Of a stretch of 64,000 nucleotides of DNA, positions 23,558 through 51,132 are shown piece after piece; within the stretch, counting starts at the first letter, position 1, and each line of letters begins with the position of its first letter. Below the pieces are notes generated by a model that saw only the letters and a list, made by a program, of their open reading frames with translations, ran no database searches and had not been told where the DNA came from. The position numbers were made by a program, and so were the translations under genes. Location of the stretch: contig NZ_CP068047.1 in the NCBI RefSeq assembly GCF_016698645.1, forward strand, positions 1,399,001-1,463,000, read 5' to 3'. The stretch is from Devosia oryziradicis. GTDB lineage: Bacteria > Pseudomonadota > Alphaproteobacteria > Rhizobiales > Devosiaceae.

Positions 23558-24607
23558 ATGCTAACTTTCCTGTCCGATTTGATTTCGCCCTATTGGGGGC
23601 CGGCGCGGCTTTTTGCCTTCTATCCGGTGCTGGCAACCGTTGGCGCGCTGCTGTCGGCCCTGCTGTCGCTGCTGGTGCTGCCCCGGGTTTGGCATGTGCT
23701 GACGACCGACAAGGGCCGGGCGCATGCCGTCAAGGCAGAAGAAAGCGTGGGCAAGCCGGTGGGCGTCGGCATCTTCATCGTGCTGATCACGGTGGGCGTG
23801 CTGCTGATCTGCCTGCCCTATGATCCCCGCCTCTATTTCTGCCTCGGCGCGATGCTGATCGCGTCCTGTGTCGGCTATCTGGACGACAGCAAGCCGGGCG
23901 GGCTCAGCGAGCTGACGCTAGGCCTTACGGACCTGGCGATCTCGCTGTTCGTCTGCGTGGTGTTGATGAATGGTGAAAACACCCACGTCTGGCTGCCTTT
24001 CACCTCCGCGCAACTGACGCTGCCCTGGTGGGGCGGCGTGCTGCTCTACACGCCGGTCATGTGGCTGTGCATCAATGCGGTCAACTGCAACGACGGCGTC
24101 GATGGCGTGTCGGGTACGCTGTCATCGTTCACCATCTGCGTGCTGGGCCTGATCCTCTATTTCGTTGTCGGCGATGTCGCCAATGCACGATACCTGCTGA
24201 TCCCCTACAATCCCGACGCGGTGAGCTGGGCGCTGGCGGCGGCGGTGTTCTGCGGCGCCATCCTGGGCTATCTCTGGCACAATGCTCCACCCAGCGCGGC
24301 GCTGATGGGGGATGCCGGATCTCGCCCGATCGGGCTGTTCGTGGGCATGTGCGTGGTGGTTACCGGCAATCCGACCATGGTCTTCTTTGTCGGCGCGCTG
24401 CTGCTCTTCAATGGCGCGACGGGCCTGGCCAAGGTTGCCCTGATGCGGCTGTTCGGCTGGCGCATTCTCAGTTCGATCCGCTTTCCGTTCCACGACCATG
24501 TGCGCAAGAACCTCAACTGGTCGAACTCCCAGGTGCTCCTGCGCTTCCTGCTTATTCACGTGGCAAGCATCTGGGTGCTGGTGATCCTGCTGATCAAGGT
24601 CCGGTAG
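23558..24607 (+). CDS. MraY-like phospho-sugar transferase, orphan
   Basis: 349 aa, about ten membrane helices. It has all polyprenyl-phosphate N-acetylhexosamine-1-phosphate transferase motifs. A VGYLDDSK block stands for the MraY Asp pair (GFxDDY), and NAVNCNDGVDGVSG for NAVNLTDGLDGLA. ALMGDAGSRPIG stands for FMGDVGSLALG. PFHDHVRKN replaces the MraY-specific APIHHHYE loop, and the C terminus LIKVR resembles E. coli MraY. The GxPxMGG motif is altered (GKPVGVG). It should transfer a phospho-sugar to a lipid carrier. It is not in a cell-division cluster, so it is probably a paralogue or specialised enzyme, not the housekeeping MraY. Confidence 0.8.
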   Translation: MLTFLSDLISPYWGPARLFAFYPVLATVGALLSALLSLLVLPRVWHVLTTDKGRAHAVKAEESVGKPVGVGIFIVLITVGVLLICLPYDPRLYFCLGAMLIASCVGYLDDSKPGGLSELTLGLTDLAISLFVCVVLMNGENTHVWLPFTSAQLTLPWWGGVLLYTPVMWLCINAVNCNDGVDGVSGTLSSFTICVLGLILYFVVGDVANARYLLIPYNPDAVSWALAAAVFCGAILGYLWHNAPPSAALMGDAGSRPIGLFVGMCVVVTGNPTMVFFVGALLLFNGATGLAKVALMRLFGWRILSSIRFPFHDHVRKNLNWSNSQVLLRFLLIHVASIWVLVILLIKVR

Positions 24608-35081: not shown

Positions 35082-36098
35082 CTATTGCTGCAGCGGCCCC
35101 GAGCTTTGGCGCAGGACCAGCTCCACGGGCCAGAGCTCATGCACGTCCTGCACCGGCTTGCCGCCGAGGATCTGCAGGATCAGCTCGGCAATGCGCATCC
35201 CCGCCTGGCGGATCGACGAGCGGGTCGTGGACATGGTGGGGTACATGTTGTCGGCATTGAGATAGGGGAAGACGTCGTCATGAGCGATCATGGAGACGTC
35301 CTTGCCCAACTCGAGCCCGGCTTGGCGTATGGCGCGAAACACGCCCAGCGCGGTCATCATGGAGCCGGCGAGAAATGCGGTGGGACGCGGCCGCAGTTCG
35401 AGCATAGCCTGGGCCTGGCGGAAGGCGATTTCGTCGGTGAAGATGGAGTTCCCCATCAATGCCGGATCGAAAGCGACGCCGCGCGCGGATAGGGCTGCGA
35501 GGTAACCCAGTTCGCGGTGCTCGGCGAAGGTGCGGCCCTTGAGGCCGTTGAGCAGGGCGATGCGGCGATGGCCGAGATCGAGCAGGTGGCCGGTGGCGCG
35601 CTCGACGGCCCCGGTATTGTCGATGTCCATCCAGGCGACCGGTTCGCCGATATTGGTGCGGCCATGCAGCACGAAGGGGACCTTGAGGTCGAGCAGCAAT
35701 TCGGCACGCTGGTCCCGCAAGGTCGGCGAATGCAGCACCACCGCATCTACCTTCTGGCTCGCGGCGATGCGGCGGTAGGCCGCCAACTCGTCCTCGAGGC
35801 TGTTGACGGTGACAACCAGGATGTCGATCTCCTGAGCACCGACCTGTCCGCCCATGCCGGCGAGGAACTCACTCATATGCGGCCCCAGTTCGTCGGCGCC
35901 GCGCAGGACCAGCCCAACGGCGCCGGAGCGCCCCGTGGCGAGGCGCAGGGCGCTGGCATTGGGACGGTAGCCCAGGCGCGCCGCGGTCTCAGCAACGCGC
36001 AGCCGCGTGGCCTCATTGACTTCGGGATAGCCATTGAGGGCGCGACTGACAGTGGTTTGCGACAGGCCGAGATGCTCAGCCAGATCCTTCAGTCTCAT
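35082..36098 (-). CDS. thuR: LacI-family regulator of the thu operon (ThuR-like)
   Basis: 338 aa from ATG 36098, where the LacI headpiece begins (MRLKDLAEHLGLSQTTVSRALNGYPEVNEATR, residues 1-32). A periplasmic-binding-protein-like effector domain follows. It stands divergent from thuEFGKAB, and two palindromic LacI-type sites lie between. It would repress the operon until a disaccharide binds. Its relatives include AglR and ThuR of Sinorhizobium; ThuR is preferred from the neighbours. It converges with the DUF1513 gene, 14 bases apart. A weak ribosome binding site fits a low-level repressor. Confidence 0.85.
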   Translation of the reverse strand: MRLKDLAEHLGLSQTTVSRALNGYPEVNEATRLRVAETAARLGYRPNASALRLATGRSGAVGLVLRGADELGPHMSEFLAGMGGQVGAQEIDILVVTVNSLEDELAAYRRIAASQKVDAVVLHSPTLRDQRAELLLDLKVPFVLHGRTNIGEPVAWMDIDNTGAVERATGHLLDLGHRRIALLNGLKGRTFAEHRELGYLAALSARGVAFDPALMGNSIFTDEIAFRQAQAMLELRPRPTAFLAGSMMTALGVFRAIRQAGLELGKDVSMIAHDDVFPYLNADNMYPTMSTTRSSIRQAGMRIAELILQILGGKPVQDVHELWPVELVLRQSSGPLQQ

Positions 36099-46595: not shown

Positions 46596-47243
46596 ATGAA
46601 GAGCGCTCTAATCGTTTATGGCGGGTGGTCCGGGCATGATCCGGAGGAATGCGCCGCCATCTATCGGCGATGGCTGCACGAGGACGGGTTTTCCGTGCGC
46701 ATGGCGACGGAAACCAGCGCGTTTGCCGATCCGTCCATTCATGAGCTGAGCCTGATCATCCCCATCTTCACGATGAGCAAGATCGAGAAGGAAGAGGTCG
46801 AGAACCTCACCAAGGCGGTCGAAGGCGGGGTAGGGCTGGCCGGTCACCATGGCGGCATGAGCGATGCCTTCCGCGAGGCGGTGGACTACCAGTTCATGGT
46901 GGGCGGGCAGTGGGTGGCCCATCCCGGCAATATCATCGACTACACGGTGGACGTGGCCGACCCGCTGGACCCCATCATGGCCGGGATCAAGTCATTCCCC
47001 TACACGTCCGAGCAATATTACATGCATGTGGACCCCTCCAACCACGTGCTGGCGACCACGACCTTCACGGGCGATCACGCGCCTTGGATCTCGGGCGTGA
47101 AGATGCCGGTGGCGTGGAAGCGCATGCACGGCAAGGGCCGGGTGTTCCACTCGACGCTGGGCCACCAGGCCAAGGAATTTGACGTGCTGGAGATGGCGAC
47201 GATCATGCGGCGGGGGATAAACTGGGCGGCGCGGGAGGAGTAG
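46596..47243 (+). CDS. ThuA-like domain protein
   Basis: 215 aa from ATG 46596. It begins [20 protein letters not shown] and has the ThuA/glutamine-amidotransferase-like blocks [17 protein letters not shown] and [18 protein letters not shown]. Only distantly similar to the operon ThuA at 40979-41767. Such stand-alone ThuA-like proteins often go with secreted-sugar or 3-ketoglycoside metabolism. No sugar genes are adjacent, so function is uncertain. It converges on nrsF with about 30 bases between and no clear terminator. Confidence 0.85.
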
Positions 47244-47276
47244 GCGGCGAGGGCTGGGTGGGTAACGTGTTAGCGC

Positions 47277-47915
47277 TTACCAGCGCAGCAAAAACCGGCC
47301 CAGCACCGCTCCGATCACGCCGACGATGACGATCCCCAGCGTGTACCACAGCGCCAGGAACATCATGCCCGTTTCTGCGCAGGCGAAGGAATAGACCCAG
47401 GCGCCGGCGCCGCCGGCCATGATACCGGCGGCGAAGCCGGCAAGGGTTGGGCTGCGCGGGGCGAGACGGCGCAGGGCAAGGATGGCACCGAACAGGATGG
47501 GCAGGCCCAGCACCACGATGCGCCAGGGGCAGACCATCGAGGTGCCGCCGACAATGAGCGGCATCACGTCGTCCGGTTCGGCGCGGACCAGCTGGTAGAA
47601 CGCCAGGATCACCAGCAAGGCGAGCAGCGCCGAAGCGATATACCAGGGCCAGCGTGTGCGGCCATCGGGACGAGCCAGGGCCAGCGTGGCGACGCCACCG
47701 AGCAGGGCCACCGACAGCGTATAGGTGAACTTGGTCCAGAAGTTCATGGTGGCCATGGCGCTGTCCATGTCCGGACGCATGCCCAGCCACATGTTCATGG
47801 CGACGATGGCGACGACCGTGCTGAGCAGGGTGGCACCCACCAGCAGCCGTGCCATGGCCATGCGGCGCACCGGCTTGAGATCGGTCGAAAGGCGGGCGAT
47901 GAGGTCGTCGGTCAT
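47277..47915 (-). CDS. nrsF: NrsF (DUF1109) anti-sigma-F factor
   Basis: 212 aa with six predicted membrane helices (starting near residues 23, 59, 88, 132, 158 and 184), the hallmark of DUF1109/NrsF. Its ATG overlaps the sigF stop by four bases, so it is translationally coupled to its cognate sigma factor. Cys129 (SMVCPW) and Cys179 (SFACAET) are 50 residues apart. In Caulobacter NrsF two conserved cysteines (recalled as 131 and 181) are needed for the response to oxidising or metal stress, so these are the likely sensor residues. It holds SigF at the inner membrane until thiol-reactive stress. Confidence 0.92.
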   Translation of the reverse strand: MTDDLIARLSTDLKPVRRMAMARLLVGATLLSTVVAIVAMNMWLGMRPDMDSAMATMNFWTKFTYTLSVALLGGVATLALARPDGRTRWPWYIASALLALLVILAFYQLVRAEPDDVMPLIVGGTSMVCPWRIVVLGLPILFGAILALRRLAPRSPTLAGFAAGIMAGGAGAWVYSFACAETGMMFLALWYTLGIVIVGVIGAVLGRFLLRW

Positions 47916-48463
47916 TTCGAGCCCCCCGCGAAACGCGCGGCGAGCGCCTTGAGGCCGCGGTGAATGGAGACCTTCGCGGCTGTTTCGGAGATGCCGTGGG
48001 CTGCGGCGGCCTCGGCGACGGAAGCGCCATCGACCTTGGTGCGGCGGATTAGATCGCCGGTGCGGGCGGGAACGGCGTCAAGCACGACGTCGAGATCGCG
48101 GCGCGCCAAGGCGTCGGCGTTGTCGTCATGGGCGAAGATGGGGGCATCGTCCTCAAGCGGGACGGTGAGGCGGATGGACTGGCGGCGCACGTGGTCGACG
48201 AACTTATGGTGCGCGACCGCGTGCAGCCAGGCCGTGAATGGCCGGTTGCGGTCATAGGTCATGCGCCTTGTGTGAACTGCCAGCAGGGTCTCCTGCACGA
48301 GATCCTCCGCGTGCGATGCAAAGGCAGGGGTGAGCCGCCGGGTAAAATACGGACGCAGGTGACGGCCGAGTTCTGACAGCAGCGTGCGATAGGCCGCAGC
48401 ATCGCCGTCGAGCGAGGCGAGCATCAAATCCCGCAATCGCATCTCGGTCGGATCAGTCTGCAT
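47912..48463 (-). CDS. sigF: SigF-type ECF sigma factor
   Basis: 183 aa from ATG 48463; a later ATG at 48442 (176 aa, MRLRDLMLASLDG) is equally plausible. The in-frame ATG at 48487 is excluded because it falls inside the promoter spacer. Region 2 spans about 15-85 (AEDLVQETLLAVHTRRMTYD, FTAWLHAVAHHKFVDHVRR) and region 4 about 125-175 (VAEAAAAHGISETAAKVSIHRGLKAL). With NrsF it forms the oxidative/metal stress unit known from Caulobacter and Azospira. It is autoregulated from an exact GTAACC-N16-CGAA promoter, whose start point would leave almost no 5' leader for the 48463 start. Confidence 0.92.
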   Translation of the reverse strand: MQTDPTEMRLRDLMLASLDGDAAAYRTLLSELGRHLRPYFTRRLTPAFASHAEDLVQETLLAVHTRRMTYDRNRPFTAWLHAVAHHKFVDHVRRQSIRLTVPLEDDAPIFAHDDNADALARRDLDVVLDAVPARTGDLIRRTKVDGASVAEAAAAHGISETAAKVSIHRGLKALAARFAGGSK

Positions 48464-48473
48464 TATCCATCCA

Positions 48474-48499
48474 TTCGTGGCAGCCATCAGGATGGTTAC
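48474..48499 (-). promoter_or_regulatory. sigF: SigF-dependent promoter of sigF-nrsF
   Basis: On the minus strand GTAACC (48499-48494), 16 bases, CGAA (48477-48474). This is an exact match to the Caulobacter sigma-F consensus GTAACC-N16-CGAA and implies autoregulation. Confidence 0.85.
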
Positions 48500-48553
48500 A
48501 CGCTGCCACCGAGAGAGGGAATGACGAAGTGACGATCACGTCGTCGTGAACAG

Positions 48554-48579
48554 GTAACCGAGTTGGCTGCCTGGTCGAA
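48554..48579 (+). promoter_or_regulatory. SigF-dependent promoter of the methionine-rich protein operon
   Basis: GTAACC (48554-48559), 16-base spacer, CGAA (48576-48579). It is the mirror image of the sigF promoter, 55 bases away, and lies 54 bases before ATG 48634. Confidence 0.85.
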
Positions 48580-48633
48580 TGGGGTGGCATGATCGCCTGC
48601 CACTGGGGCGGGATCGATCCAGGGAGACCCTTC

Positions 48634-49032
48634 ATGTTCAGTACCCTTCGCGGCCTGTCGCTGGCCGCCACCCTTGCGCTCGCCTTCTCGACCGTTCCCG
48701 CAGCATTCGCCGAGGACGCCATGGCAACCGATGCGATGGCCACCGATGCGATGGCGCCGGCGATGACGCCGCTCACTGACGATGAGTTCAAGCTCTGCAT
48801 GGAGCAGGCCGGCGCCATCACCTTTCCGGCAGCGCAGTATGCAGCCACTTCGGCCTGTCATGGCCTCCATGCGGGCATGGATGTGATGGGGGCGATCGAC
48901 CGGGCGATGGCGCCCGCCGATGCAATGGCGCCCGCCGATGCCATGGCCCCAGCCGATGCGATGGCGCCGGACGCAATGGCTCCCGCCGATGCCATGGCTC
49001 CTGCCGACGCGATGGCACCCGCCACCAAATAA
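48634..49032 (+). CDS. methionine-rich periplasmic repeat protein (MrpX-like)
   Basis: 132 aa from ATG 48634 (GGGAG seven bases upstream). Signal peptide cleaved near residue 26 (PAAFA-ED). The mature 106 residues contain 14 Met. Two Met-rich parts, AMATDAMATDAMAPAM (29-44) and seven AMAPAD-type repeats (91-130), flank a short non-repetitive segment with Cys55 and Cys75 and Met56. Controlled by SigF and followed by cytochrome b and Mo-oxidoreductase genes. By analogy with MrpX of Azospira, its methionines would be oxidised by hypochlorite or similar and be repaired enzymatically. The repeat sequence itself is unlike any I can name, so homology is by role only. Confidence 0.75.
   Translation: MFSTLRGLSLAATLALAFSTVPAAFAEDAMATDAMATDAMAPAMTPLTDDEFKLCMEQAGAITFPAAQYAATSACHGLHAGMDVMGAIDRAMAPADAMAPADAMAPADAMAPDAMAPADAMAPADAMAPATK
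48904..49023 (+). repeat. tandem 18-base repeat encoding AMAPAD units
   Basis: About seven imperfect 18-base units of the type GCGATGGCGCCCGCCGAT (one unit is 15 bases). Third positions vary between units, so the protein repeat is better conserved than the DNA. Copy number could change by slippage. Confidence 0.85.
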
Positions 49033-49116
49033 ATTTCCGTGCTATGCATCATTTGTCCCGCGCAGCTCCGTTACTGCCAGCGCGGGGCAGGTGGCCTCGA
49101 TGCTCAAGGGGATGGA

Positions 49117-49968
49117 ATGAGCGAAGCCAATGAACTGCCGCCCGGCAAGGGCCCGCTGATCTATCGCCAGTCGATCTGGACGCGCGTGACCCACTGGACC
49201 TGGGCGATCTGCCTGTTTTTCCTGCTGCTGACGGGTCTGCAAATCTTCAATGCCCACCCGGCCCTTTACATTGGGCAGCAATCCGGCTTCGAATTCGAGA
49301 ACGCCATCCTCGAGATCGGCGCTGTTAATACCGATGCCGGTCCGCGCGGTCAGACCACCATATTCGGCAACAGTTTCGACAGCACGGCGCTTGGGCTGGG
49401 GCTCAGCGGTACGCCGGAGCGGCCGACCTTTACCGCCTTCCCCGGATCGGTGACCATCCCCGGCTACCGCGACCTCGGCACCGGCCGGGTGGTGCATTTC
49501 TTCTTCGGCTGGATATTCGTGGCCACGATCATGATCTGGTTTGTCGCCAGCTTCATCAACGGGCACATCCGCCGGGACATCGTGCCCCGGCCGTCGGACA
49601 TTGCCGGCGTGCCCAGGGACATCGCCGACCACGCCACGCTACGCTTCCACCATGGCCGGAGCTATGGTCCGCTGCAGAAGCTGGCCTATTTCGGGGTGTT
49701 CTTCATTCTCTTCCCGCTGATCGTGCTGACGGGGCTGACCATGAGCCCTGGCATGGACGCGGCCTGGCCGTGGCTGCTCGACCTTTTCGGCGGGCGGCAG
49801 ACGGCGCGGACCATTCATTTCATCACCATGGCGCTACTGTTGGGCTTTTTCCTCATTCACATCATCATGGTGTTGGCCGCAGGGCCGATCAACGAACTGC
49901 GCTCGATGATCACGGGCTGGTATCGCGCCAGCCCCGGCACGCCCACCGCCGAAGGAGACAGACCATGA
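49117..49968 (+). CDS. cytochrome b561-type membrane subunit for the Mo-oxidoreductase
   Basis: 283 aa from ATG 49117 (AAGGGGATGGA just upstream). Four main membrane helices: about residues 25-45 (HWTWAICLFFLLLTGLQIF), 130-152, 190-212 and 232-252. His residues suitable for haem b are in THWTW, VVHFFFGW, TLRFHHGRS and IHFITMALLLGFFLIHIIMV. A periplasmic loop of about 80 residues separates helices 1 and 2. It would carry electrons from quinol to the molybdopterin enzyme, as YedZ/MsrQ does for YedY/MsrP, although it is a b561-type protein, not a YedZ homologue. ATGA overlap with the next gene. Confidence 0.85.
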   Translation: MSEANELPPGKGPLIYRQSIWTRVTHWTWAICLFFLLLTGLQIFNAHPALYIGQQSGFEFENAILEIGAVNTDAGPRGQTTIFGNSFDSTALGLGLSGTPERPTFTAFPGSVTIPGYRDLGTGRVVHFFFGWIFVATIMIWFVASFINGHIRRDIVPRPSDIAGVPRDIADHATLRFHHGRSYGPLQKLAYFGVFFILFPLIVLTGLTMSPGMDAAWPWLLDLFGGRQTARTIHFITMALLLGFFLIHIIMVLAAGPINELRSMITGWYRASPGTPTAEGDRP

Positions 49969-50753
49969 GCCGGCTCATCACCCGCCGCAATTTCCTGCGC
50001 AGTTCCGCAGTGGCCGGTTCGGGGCTGATCCTGGCCGGTTGCGACCAGTTCAACTTCCTGGGCGACAAGACCAACTCGGTCCGCCACGTGATGGAACAGG
50101 CCAATGTGCTGACCTACAACGTGCAGCGCACGCTGATCGGCGACCAGGTGCTGGCCCGCGAGTATTCGGCCAGCGAAATCCGCCAGGGGCAACGGCCGAA
50201 CGGGTCCACCGACCCATCGACGCCGGAATACATGTTCCTCAAGATGCAGAATTTCGAGCCGTATCGCCTGACCATCAAGGGGATGGTCGAGCGCGAAGTG
50301 AGCTTCTCGCTGGCCGAGCTGCGCAATATGCCCATGCGCAGCCAGATCACCCGGCACGACTGCGTCGAGGGCTGGAGCTGCATCGCCAAGTGGACCGGCA
50401 CGCCACTGGGACCGGTGCTCGATATGGCGGGCGTAAAGCCGCAGGCCAGGTTCTGCGTCTATCACTGCTACGACAATATCCAGCGGACGCTGTCGGGCGA
50501 CATTCTCTACTACGAGAGCAGCGACCTGGTGGATGCCTACCATCCGCAGACGATCCTCAGCTACGGGCTCAACGACCAGGTGCTGCCGGTCAGCAATGGC
50601 GCCCCGATCCGCCTGCGGATCGAGCGGGCGCTGGGCTACAAGCAGCCGAAATATCTCCACACGATCGAGCTGGTCGACGACCTGACGCCGTTCGGCAAGG
50701 GCAAGGGCGGCTATTGGCCGGACCAGGGGTATGATTGGTATGGGGGGATTTGA
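49965..50753 (+). CDS. YedY-like molybdopterin oxidoreductase, Tat lipoprotein
   Basis: 262 aa. The N terminus TRRNFLRSSAVAGSGLILAGC has both a twin-arginine motif (RRNFLR) and a lipobox (LAGC, Cys about 25), so it should be exported folded and anchored to a membrane. Sulfite-oxidase-type molybdopterin domain with the Mo-ligating Cys in RHDCVEGWSCIAKW, matching RCVEAWS of MsrP, and LPVSNGAPIRLRIE matching LPPQNGAPVRL. It lacks part of the MsrP C terminus, so it is shorter than MsrP (about 330 aa). Probable role: reduce methionine sulfoxide in the Met-rich protein or other envelope proteins (inferred from context). Confidence 0.85.
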   Translation: MSRLITRRNFLRSSAVAGSGLILAGCDQFNFLGDKTNSVRHVMEQANVLTYNVQRTLIGDQVLAREYSASEIRQGQRPNGSTDPSTPEYMFLKMQNFEPYRLTIKGMVEREVSFSLAELRNMPMRSQITRHDCVEGWSCIAKWTGTPLGPVLDMAGVKPQARFCVYHCYDNIQRTLSGDILYYESSDLVDAYHPQTILSYGLNDQVLPVSNGAPIRLRIERALGYKQPKYLHTIELVDDLTPFGKGKGGYWPDQGYDWYGGI

Positions 50754-51132
50754 GCATTCGACCTTCTCCCCGTGAGGGAGAGGTAGCGCGCAACCCGGCC
50801 ATGCAGCGCGCCGCCCCGAATTTCCTTGCTATTTCAGGCGCCATCACCCATATCAGCCCCATCGTCACCGGCGCATGGACCTTTGTTGGATCCGCTGGCG
50901 CTAGAAATTTGGTGACGGACTTCTCTTCTTATCCCCTGCGGTGAGCGGCGAAGTCAGCCCGGAAACTACCCTGTTCGGCAGGATGTCCGGGTTCGAGCCA
51001 GCACCCGCGCGATATCTCCCTTATCGCCCGATTGCACCTGTTGATCCGCCGTTCCCCAGGGAATGGCGATTTGCGCGCTGCACTGTTCTGCGCGCTCGCA
51101 AGCGCCCTATCGGCGCAGAAAGACGTGTACAC
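50754..51132. other. 379-base intergenic/leader region before the DEAD-box gene
   Basis: It holds one CTCCCC-type palindrome (50763-50783). The rest is probably promoter and a long 5' leader of the helicase gene; the helicase frame is open back to 50941 without helicase-like sequence. No separate gene is supported. Confidence 0.55.
50763..50783. repeat. CTCCCC-type palindrome
   Basis: TCTCCC (50765-50770) / GGGAGA (50776-50781) with loop CGTGA, extendable to CTTCTCCC/GGGAGAGG with one wobble pair. It may double as the terminator of the SigF operon. Confidence 0.6.

Follow-up and report, generated by a model that had tools for sequence, protein, structure and literature searches.

According to the available text of the respective reports, the closest described relatives of the locus considered here join an extracytoplasmic function (ECF) sigma factor and its anti-sigma factor to a methionine-rich protein and reductase components. 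In Brucella melitensis, BcrS-AbcS/BcrXQP comprises an ECF16 sigma factor and a DUF1109 anti-sigma factor beside an MXKDX protein and a reductase pair, with GTAACC..CGAA sites on both sides, and the operon is induced by HOCl and contributes to survival of this oxidant (PMC8315932). In Azospira suillum, SigF/NrsF accompany the Met-rich peptide MrpX and YedYZ (PMC5748585, PMC4623255), and perchlorate islands combine sigF/nrsF, yedYZ and mrpX, two of them adding exported msrA/msrB (PMC4623255). The ECF16 pair EcfF-OsrA of Bradyrhizobium carries Cys at positions 129 and 179 of OsrA, both of which matter, and the EcfF regulon includes three methionine sulfoxide (MetSO) reductases, one of them predicted to be periplasmic (PMC3420878). 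Here, we describe a locus of Devosia oryziradicis, at 47277..50753 of a stretch of 64,000 nucleotides (the window; G000:C1:1399001-1463000 of a 3.5-Mb single-contig genome), in which sigF-nrsF are divergent from genes for an exported Met-rich protein (the bait), a b-type cytochrome and a short MsrP-like molybdoenzyme.

We consider, with a probability of about three in four, that this is a SigF/NrsF-controlled periplasmic locus for defence against methionine oxidation and for MetSO repair. We infer oxidant sensing, scavenging, MetSO reductase activity and an electron flow from quinol, which could be linked as follows. NrsF would keep SigF at the membrane, and an oxidant acting on NrsF, probably via Cys179 by analogy with OsrA, would release it. 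As the conserved promoter-like sites suggest, SigF would then transcribe sigF-nrsF, the bait, cytochrome and molybdoenzyme genes and, elsewhere in the genome, genes for exported MsrB and MsrA. The bait would absorb the oxidant as MetSO, and the molybdoenzyme, probably lipid-anchored, would reduce it together with other oxidised periplasmic proteins, electrons passing from the quinol pool through the b-type cytochrome. The exported MsrA and MsrB may contribute thiol-dependent repair.

Gene content and promoter sites of the locus

The features of the locus, in window positions, are the following.

47277..47915, minus strand: nrsF, multi-helix anti-sigma factor (PF06532 (DUF1109), 228.6 bits; Cys129 and Cys179)
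47912..48463, minus strand: sigF, ECF sigma factor of the SigF (ECF16) kind (PF04542 and PF08281; open reading frame opening at 48487)
48474..48499, minus strand: SigF-type promoter site GTAACC-N16-CGAA for sigF-nrsF (exact pattern match)
48554..48579, plus strand: SigF-type promoter site GTAACC-N16-CGAA for the bait, cytochrome and molybdoenzyme genes (exact pattern match)
48634..49032, plus strand: exported Met-rich protein, 132 residues, MAPAD-type repeats (26-residue signal peptide by eye)
48796..48858, plus strand: C-x19-C helical hairpin core of the Met-rich protein, Cys55 to Cys75 (from alignment and model confidence)
49050..49094, plus strand: RNA hairpin between the Met-rich and cytochrome genes (folding against shuffles; no T-run)
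49117..49968, plus strand: b-type cytochrome, 283 residues (PF01292, 77.7 bits; four invariant His)
49965..50753, plus strand: short MsrP-like molybdoenzyme, 262 residues (PF00174, 101.5 bits; twin-Arg and lipobox-like LAGC by eye)

The row of five genes announced by the initial annotation is present at these positions, the molybdoenzyme start overlapping the cytochrome stop codon (ATGA). Four of the five products match Pfam families above the cut-offs (26.8 bits for PF06532, 30.1 for PF01292 and 24 for PF00174), the Met-rich protein being the exception. The annotation had likewise named an ECF sigma factor with a six-helix anti-sigma factor, a b-type cytochrome and a molybdopterin enzyme, as the PF04542/PF08281, PF06532, PF01292 and PF00174 matches bear out, and a simple hydropathy scan of NrsF fits six helices. 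NrsF carries Cys at positions 129 and 179 and no others, and its profile finds a single match across the genome; it scores 153.7 bits against a cut-off of 300 for the NCBIfam equivalog AntiSigF_NrsF. With a DUF1109 protein of apparently six helices beside the sigma factor, both Cys and a predicted site before its own operon, the pair has the attributes of an ECF16 SigF/NrsF pair.

The arrangement of genes and sites is real and beyond chance. The exact pattern GTAACC-N16/17-CGAA occurs four times in the window against 0.06 expected, and two of the matches form the divergent pair that had been claimed in both directions, at 48474-48499 and 48554-48579. The other two (24338-24363 and 35502-35528) were set aside, as they are intragenic, in genes that by eye are mraY-like and of LacI type. 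A promoter scan found no sigma-70-type promoter in 47200-51100, and Rfam gave no match at E ≤ 0.1 across the locus region. The minus-strand -10 element comes after the ATG at 48487 that opens the long sigF frame, which makes 48463 or 48442 the probable translation start; the start of Bradyrhizobium ecfF was re-annotated in a like fashion (PMC3420878).

These sites are conserved within the genus. We compared 61 Devosia loci, namely the window and regions from 60 of the 74 other genomes, and called SigF+ those with an NrsF match near the cytochrome-molybdoenzyme pair; in the fragmented assembly G046 this match lies on another contig. Allowing at most one mismatch, the sigF-side site is found in 42 of the 43 SigF+ loci, and a plus-side site stands before the first gene of that strand in 42 of 43 (23 exact) and in one of the 18 SigF- loci, where shuffles predict about 0.75 and 0.4, respectively. 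In all 12 SigF+ loci devoid of the bait, the site stands directly before the cytochrome gene; what stays next to the SigF site is therefore the redox pair, with the bait as an optional extra.

Variable partners in Devosia and a probable wider regulon

Matches to the cytochrome and the molybdoenzyme are adjacent in all 75 Devosia genomes, with the pair split or interrupted in a few (e.g. G002, G004, G052, G061 and G072). NrsF exceeds its cut-off in 53 of the 75, and the bait gene (E ≤ 0.001) is present in 36, all with an NrsF match. Among the 61 loci, 31 combine SigF-NrsF and bait, 12 have SigF-NrsF without bait, and 18 consist of the pair alone. The co-occurrence proposed as a check in the initial annotation is universal for the pair and limited to 31 of 61 loci for the full five-gene set. 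Some SigF- assignments carry their own qualification, G022 and G024 having NrsF elsewhere and G061, G069 and G055 being incomplete assemblies. In Devosia, the cytochrome-molybdoenzyme pair is the core function, while SigF control and the bait come and go.

In the pair-only loci, thuA ends 76-190 bp before the cytochrome gene in 17 cases and 951 bp before it in G007. Three other genera of the family (L112, L113 and L117) have thuA directly before the cytochrome gene and no SigF, which suggests that SigF-NrsF was inserted at the thuA/cytochrome junction. A quick tree of 58 of the 61 loci (G002, G004 and G052, with broken genes, being omitted) and four outgroup sequences, which were not monophyletic, requires at least 10 changes in SigF presence, seven of them forced by well-supported branches. 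So many changes make later losses likely, the direction being beyond proof by such a tree. On phylogenetically independent pairs, presence of the bait gene agrees with that of SigF in 5.1 of 7 (median p 0.0625). As a side observation, one locus (L073, genome G043) has a molybdoenzyme and a SigF that are 96% and 90% identical to those of the window, with an NrsF only 47% identical and closest to those of G047 and G038 (62-64%); its anti-sigma gene alone may have recombined or been exchanged.

With regard to targets outside the locus, nine exact sites lie elsewhere in the genome, and two of these are intergenic, correctly oriented and placed before msrB and msrA. The first base of the site is 188 bp before the gene for MsrB (PF01641, 158.6 bits) and 55 bp before that for MsrA (PF01625, 192.8 bits), both proteins having a signal sequence by eye. 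Five of the remaining seven sites fall inside long open reading frames, and two (L135 and L138) have no convincing target; at L138 (G000:C1:1561800-1564800), the site lies just 3' of an OsmC-family gene and 5' of an open reading frame that by eye is ABC-transporter-like. The site-bearing msrB (L133, G000:C1:111800-114800) lies downstream of genes for a fasciclin-domain protein and an RskA-type anti-sigma factor, perhaps two ECF circuits side by side.

The msrB site follows the presence of SigF closely. The upstream stretches scanned measured 450 bp in one set and about 700 bp in the other, and covered 70 of the 75 genomes for msrB (G041, G052, G055, G059 and G072 left aside) and 50 of 75 for msrA. 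An exact site precedes msrB in 42 of 49 SigF+ genomes and in none of 21 SigF- genomes; among the remainder, four SigF+ genomes have a one-letter change and three have no site, and one SigF- genome shows a loose match. For msrA, the exact site is present in 16 of 31 SigF+ genomes, with one more loose, and in none of 19 SigF- genomes. The reversed motif gave no match in the 60 upstream stretches of the 700-bp set. Fisher tests, uncorrected for kinship, yield p values of 3e-12 for msrB and 9e-5 for msrA. On seven independent pairs, the msrB site agrees with SigF in 6.1 on average and is opposed in none (median p 0.031). These sequence data make the exported-looking MsrA and MsrB probable SigF targets.

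Loci picked from 385 genomes at the class level (Alphaproteobacteria), which are chosen examples and not a sample, display related arrangements. In G580 and G484 (L266 and L267), one divergent promoter pair lies between msrA-msrB and cytochrome-molybdoenzyme-sigF, followed by nrsF. G649 holds the Met-rich gene, the redox pair and sigF-nrsF together, and in G322 the Met-rich gene lies beside sigF-nrsF-msrA, with the redox pair on another contig.

The bait, the redox pair and competing explanations

Once the 26-residue signal peptide is removed (the cut being placed by eye), the bait contains 14 Met in 106 residues, reproducing the count of the initial annotation. Tandem DNA repeats occupy 48904-49023 of its gene. 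No Pfam family matches the protein at E ≤ 0.01, and with the MXKDX model TIGR02953, whose cut-off is 41, it reaches 30.5 bits. In an alignment of 54 sequences (the window protein and 53 of the 120 relatives listed), both Cys are invariant, and among 31 Devosia proteins they are separated by 19 residues in 30 and by 13 in one. The AlphaFold2 model is confident in the helical hairpin only, with a mean predicted local distance difference test (pLDDT) score of 63.3 overall and block means of 94, 93 and 90 across the core at residues 51-80; searched against the PDB, it retrieved nothing at E ≤ 0.001, Saposin A being the best at E 4.8. L092 and L096 encode Met-rich proteins with the same C-x19-C spacing, that of L093 lacks it, and by eye it can be read in the bait of Rhizobium sp. 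BT03. The bait is thus a diverged one, with MAPAD repeats around a conserved two-Cys helical hairpin, and is more than repeats.

Between the bait and cytochrome genes, the RNA hairpin at 49050-49094 has a z score of about -2 in the window, where 9 of 200 shuffles fold as well. Across the 31 Devosia loci with the bait, z is below -1.5 in 27, with a mean of -2.6. The consensus holds six pairs, all with double changes, for a consensus energy of only -0.1 kcal/mol in a gappy alignment. Its loop, CCGTT(A/G)CT, is well conserved. A standard intrinsic terminator is not supported, as the hairpin has no T-run after it and the scan placed its two terminator-like sites at other positions; we infer a processing or stability element permitting production of the bait in excess.

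In the cytochrome, His 26, 127, 234 and 248 are invariant in nine of nine aligned relatives. Alignment of the molybdoenzyme with E. coli MsrP matches Asn79 as well as Cys133 and Glu135, in the CVE-WS motif (CVEGWS here); we take the roles of these residues from MsrP, Cys133 presumably being a catalytic-type Mo ligand. The top match is a partial metagenome-assembled genome (MAG) record labelled Asticcacaulis (95% identity), and a Devosia ginsengisoli record is 93% identical. No second copy of the molybdoenzyme was found in the genome at E ≤ 0.001; this query gives E. coli MsrP 60 bits, so a true MsrP in the genome would probably have shown. The AlphaFold2 model of the molybdoenzyme (mean pLDDT 41.5) was left unused.

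The molybdoenzyme could instead be another member of the sulfite oxidase family, such as a sulfite dehydrogenase or a reductase of small-molecule S- or N-oxides, merely placed under SigF. Its low identity to MsrP, a b561-type partner that differs from MsrQ, and the presence of the pair in every Devosia genome, including those with no SigF beside it, would fit such an enzyme. Yet it lies far under the cut-offs for SorA (56 of 600 bits), SorT (29 of 570) and SoxC (48 of 420), retains the MsrP-type CVE-WS motif, and adjoins Met-repeat proteins in 53 and MsrA in 11 of the best 80 loci of a wider scan (see below), so that we regard this explanation as unlikely.

A response to metals (chromate, cadmium or copper), in which the Met-rich protein would chelate through its Cys pair and nearby His while the redox pair handles the damage, appears distinctly improbable. 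It can draw on Caulobacter, where the available text reports that SigF answers dichromate and cadmium and has a YedY-type gene in its regulon (PMC3511200), as well as on the two invariant Cys of the bait core and a C-H..H-like stretch in many of the aligned rows. Against it, conserved SigF-type sites precede MetSO reductases, and the upstream neighbours scanned are of GtrA and ThuA type, no genome search for the DUF2282/DUF692 genes of the Caulobacter kind having been made. The ECF16 system of Sinorhizobium is described as responding to neither cadmium, chromate nor H2O2 (PMC6180224) and hence does not discriminate.

Several observations weigh against the proposed SigF/NrsF-controlled MetSO defence. 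Of the 61 Devosia loci, 18 have the pair with neither SigF nor bait adjacent, and 12 of the 43 SigF+ loci are devoid of the bait. In the rest of the order, only two of the 46 genomes with the short enzyme (at least 195 bits) place NrsF next to the pair, its absence there being the rule. The molybdoenzyme is 23% identical to E. coli MsrP and scores 86.2 bits with the MsrP equivalog NF003767, whose cut-off is 207. The exact motif occurs 13 times genome-wide against 16 for a reversed-pattern control, so it is position and conservation that carry the regulon claim; of its two outside targets, msrA has the site in only about half of the SigF+ genomes examined and agrees with SigF in three of six independent pairs (p 0.25). 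With regard to the oxidant, Brucella mutants are reported not to be more sensitive to H2O2 (PMC8315932), the unresponsiveness of the Sinorhizobium system to this oxidant points the same way (PMC6180224), and we found no data on activity, induction or oxidation of the Devosia proteins in the literature searched.

Comparison with described systems

To place the pair more broadly, a scan of named genomes was restricted to the best 80 of 594 confirmed stretches, all with the cytochrome. A Met-repeat open reading frame lies on the same strand near the pair in 53 of these 80, and reversed sequences gave none. These neighbours belong mostly to Beta- and Gammaproteobacteria, with two Alphaproteobacteria (L291 and L308); annotated examples are Caballeronia grimmiae and Rhizobium sp. 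BT03. Both NrsF and SigF also appear in 15 of the best 80. Among the short-enzyme loci outside Devosia, part of which were retrieved for comparison, L092 and L093, from two genomes of the order, have the Devosia gene order. The pair is also seen on plasmids: a mobilizable plasmid of 6.4 kb from a sewage isolate of Klebsiella variicola (NZ_CP151194.1) carries a cytochrome b/b6-molybdoenzyme pair, its other listed genes being only an IS3 transposase and an MXKDX repeat protein in a gene table that is incomplete, and relatives of the molybdoenzyme (E ≤ 1e-40) occur in 58 Escherichia plasmid records.

We can propose, with the chances evenly balanced, that a b561-type cytochrome and a short MsrP-like enzyme of about 260 residues form a second class of quinol-linked periplasmic MetSO reductase that is phylogenetically broad, distinct from MsrPQ and devoid of a flavocytochrome partner, and that would be the standard reductase for dedicated Met-repeat baits, SigF/NrsF and MsrA/MsrB being optional additions. 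Such a role for this pair is not described in the literature searched by titles and abstracts, though full texts may mention it. If MetSO repair is indeed its role, a widespread pair annotated only as cytochrome b/b6 protein and molybdopterin oxidoreductase in the records examined would gain a testable job outside the inner membrane, its own sacrificial substrate being encoded next to it. The broad class merits a biochemical test. The presence or absence of parts among Devosia species allows testing what the bait and SigF add to the core reductase, and a clean regulon prediction follows from the lack of promoter sites before msrB where SigF is not adjacent.

The plasmid pRspBT03f of Rhizobium sp. 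BT03 (NZ_CP125641.1) has the Devosia gene order, NrsF-sigma being divergent from MXKDX, cytochrome b/b6 and molybdoenzyme genes, with divergent GTAAC..CGAA-type sites between the NrsF-sigma and MXKDX genes. Unlike Devosia, it encodes a classic MXKDX repeat bait, and its molybdoenzyme is 52.7% identical. The initial annotation had regarded the locus as an independently assembled variant, with a bait, a cytochrome and a reductase each unlike those of the system already described; although the Lys-Asp of MXKDX is missing from the bait, which falls under the TIGR02953 cut-off, Brucella uses MsrQ/MsrP (PMC9045290), and SigF-NrsF may have joined an existing pair, as the thuA-cytochrome loci without SigF suggest, we consider this very improbable given the identical gene order in BT03, L092 and L093, the C-x19-C core common to the L092, L096 and (by eye) BT03 baits though not to L093, and the proximity of the pair to MXKDX-type genes in three proteobacterial classes. 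The gene order of BT03 and the Met-repeat neighbours in 53 of the best 80 loci give independent assembly no support. The oxidant scavenging and repair proposed alongside it is retained, with SigF/NrsF control of bait and reductase pair, and is now extended to MsrA and MsrB as probable targets. The annotation left two precedents unmentioned, namely bcrXQP of Brucella (PMC8315932) and the exported msrA/msrB of perchlorate islands (PMC4623255).

The difference in parts does hold with respect to Brucella, where, in the available text on B. ovis, the subunits are MsrQ (PF01794) and MsrP instead of a PF01292 protein and a short enzyme (PMC9045290). The E. coli MsrPQ system shares with Devosia a molybdoenzyme with the catalytic-type Cys and CVE-WS motif and a membrane cytochrome partner; it differs by the low identity given above, a longer enzyme (334 residues) and the flavocytochrome MsrQ. 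As the Devosia partner belongs to PF01292 and not to the MsrQ family, the pair departs from MsrPQ in this respect as well. In Bradyrhizobium, the accessible part of the EcfF regulon table names no Met-rich bait or redox pair, though it lists hypothetical proteins (PMC3420878). A MAG of Azonexus (Rhodocyclales; L320, 4916-8008) encodes nrsF-sigF divergent from a cytochrome b, a short molybdoenzyme and a classic MXKDX protein; a molybdoenzyme closely related to that of the MAG is found in Dechloromonas hortensis. Since this MAG has the b561/short type, the YedYZ of perchlorate reducers may itself be of that type, with the MAG as a possible stand-in for the Azospira cluster.

As in MrpX-type bait systems, Devosia places an exported Met-repeat protein and a reductase-type pair beside SigF/NrsF. 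The locus belongs to a widespread gene set, its bait having diverged, and the kind of system is already known; what seems new is the variable presence of its parts between species and the apparent inclusion of MsrA and MsrB under the same control.

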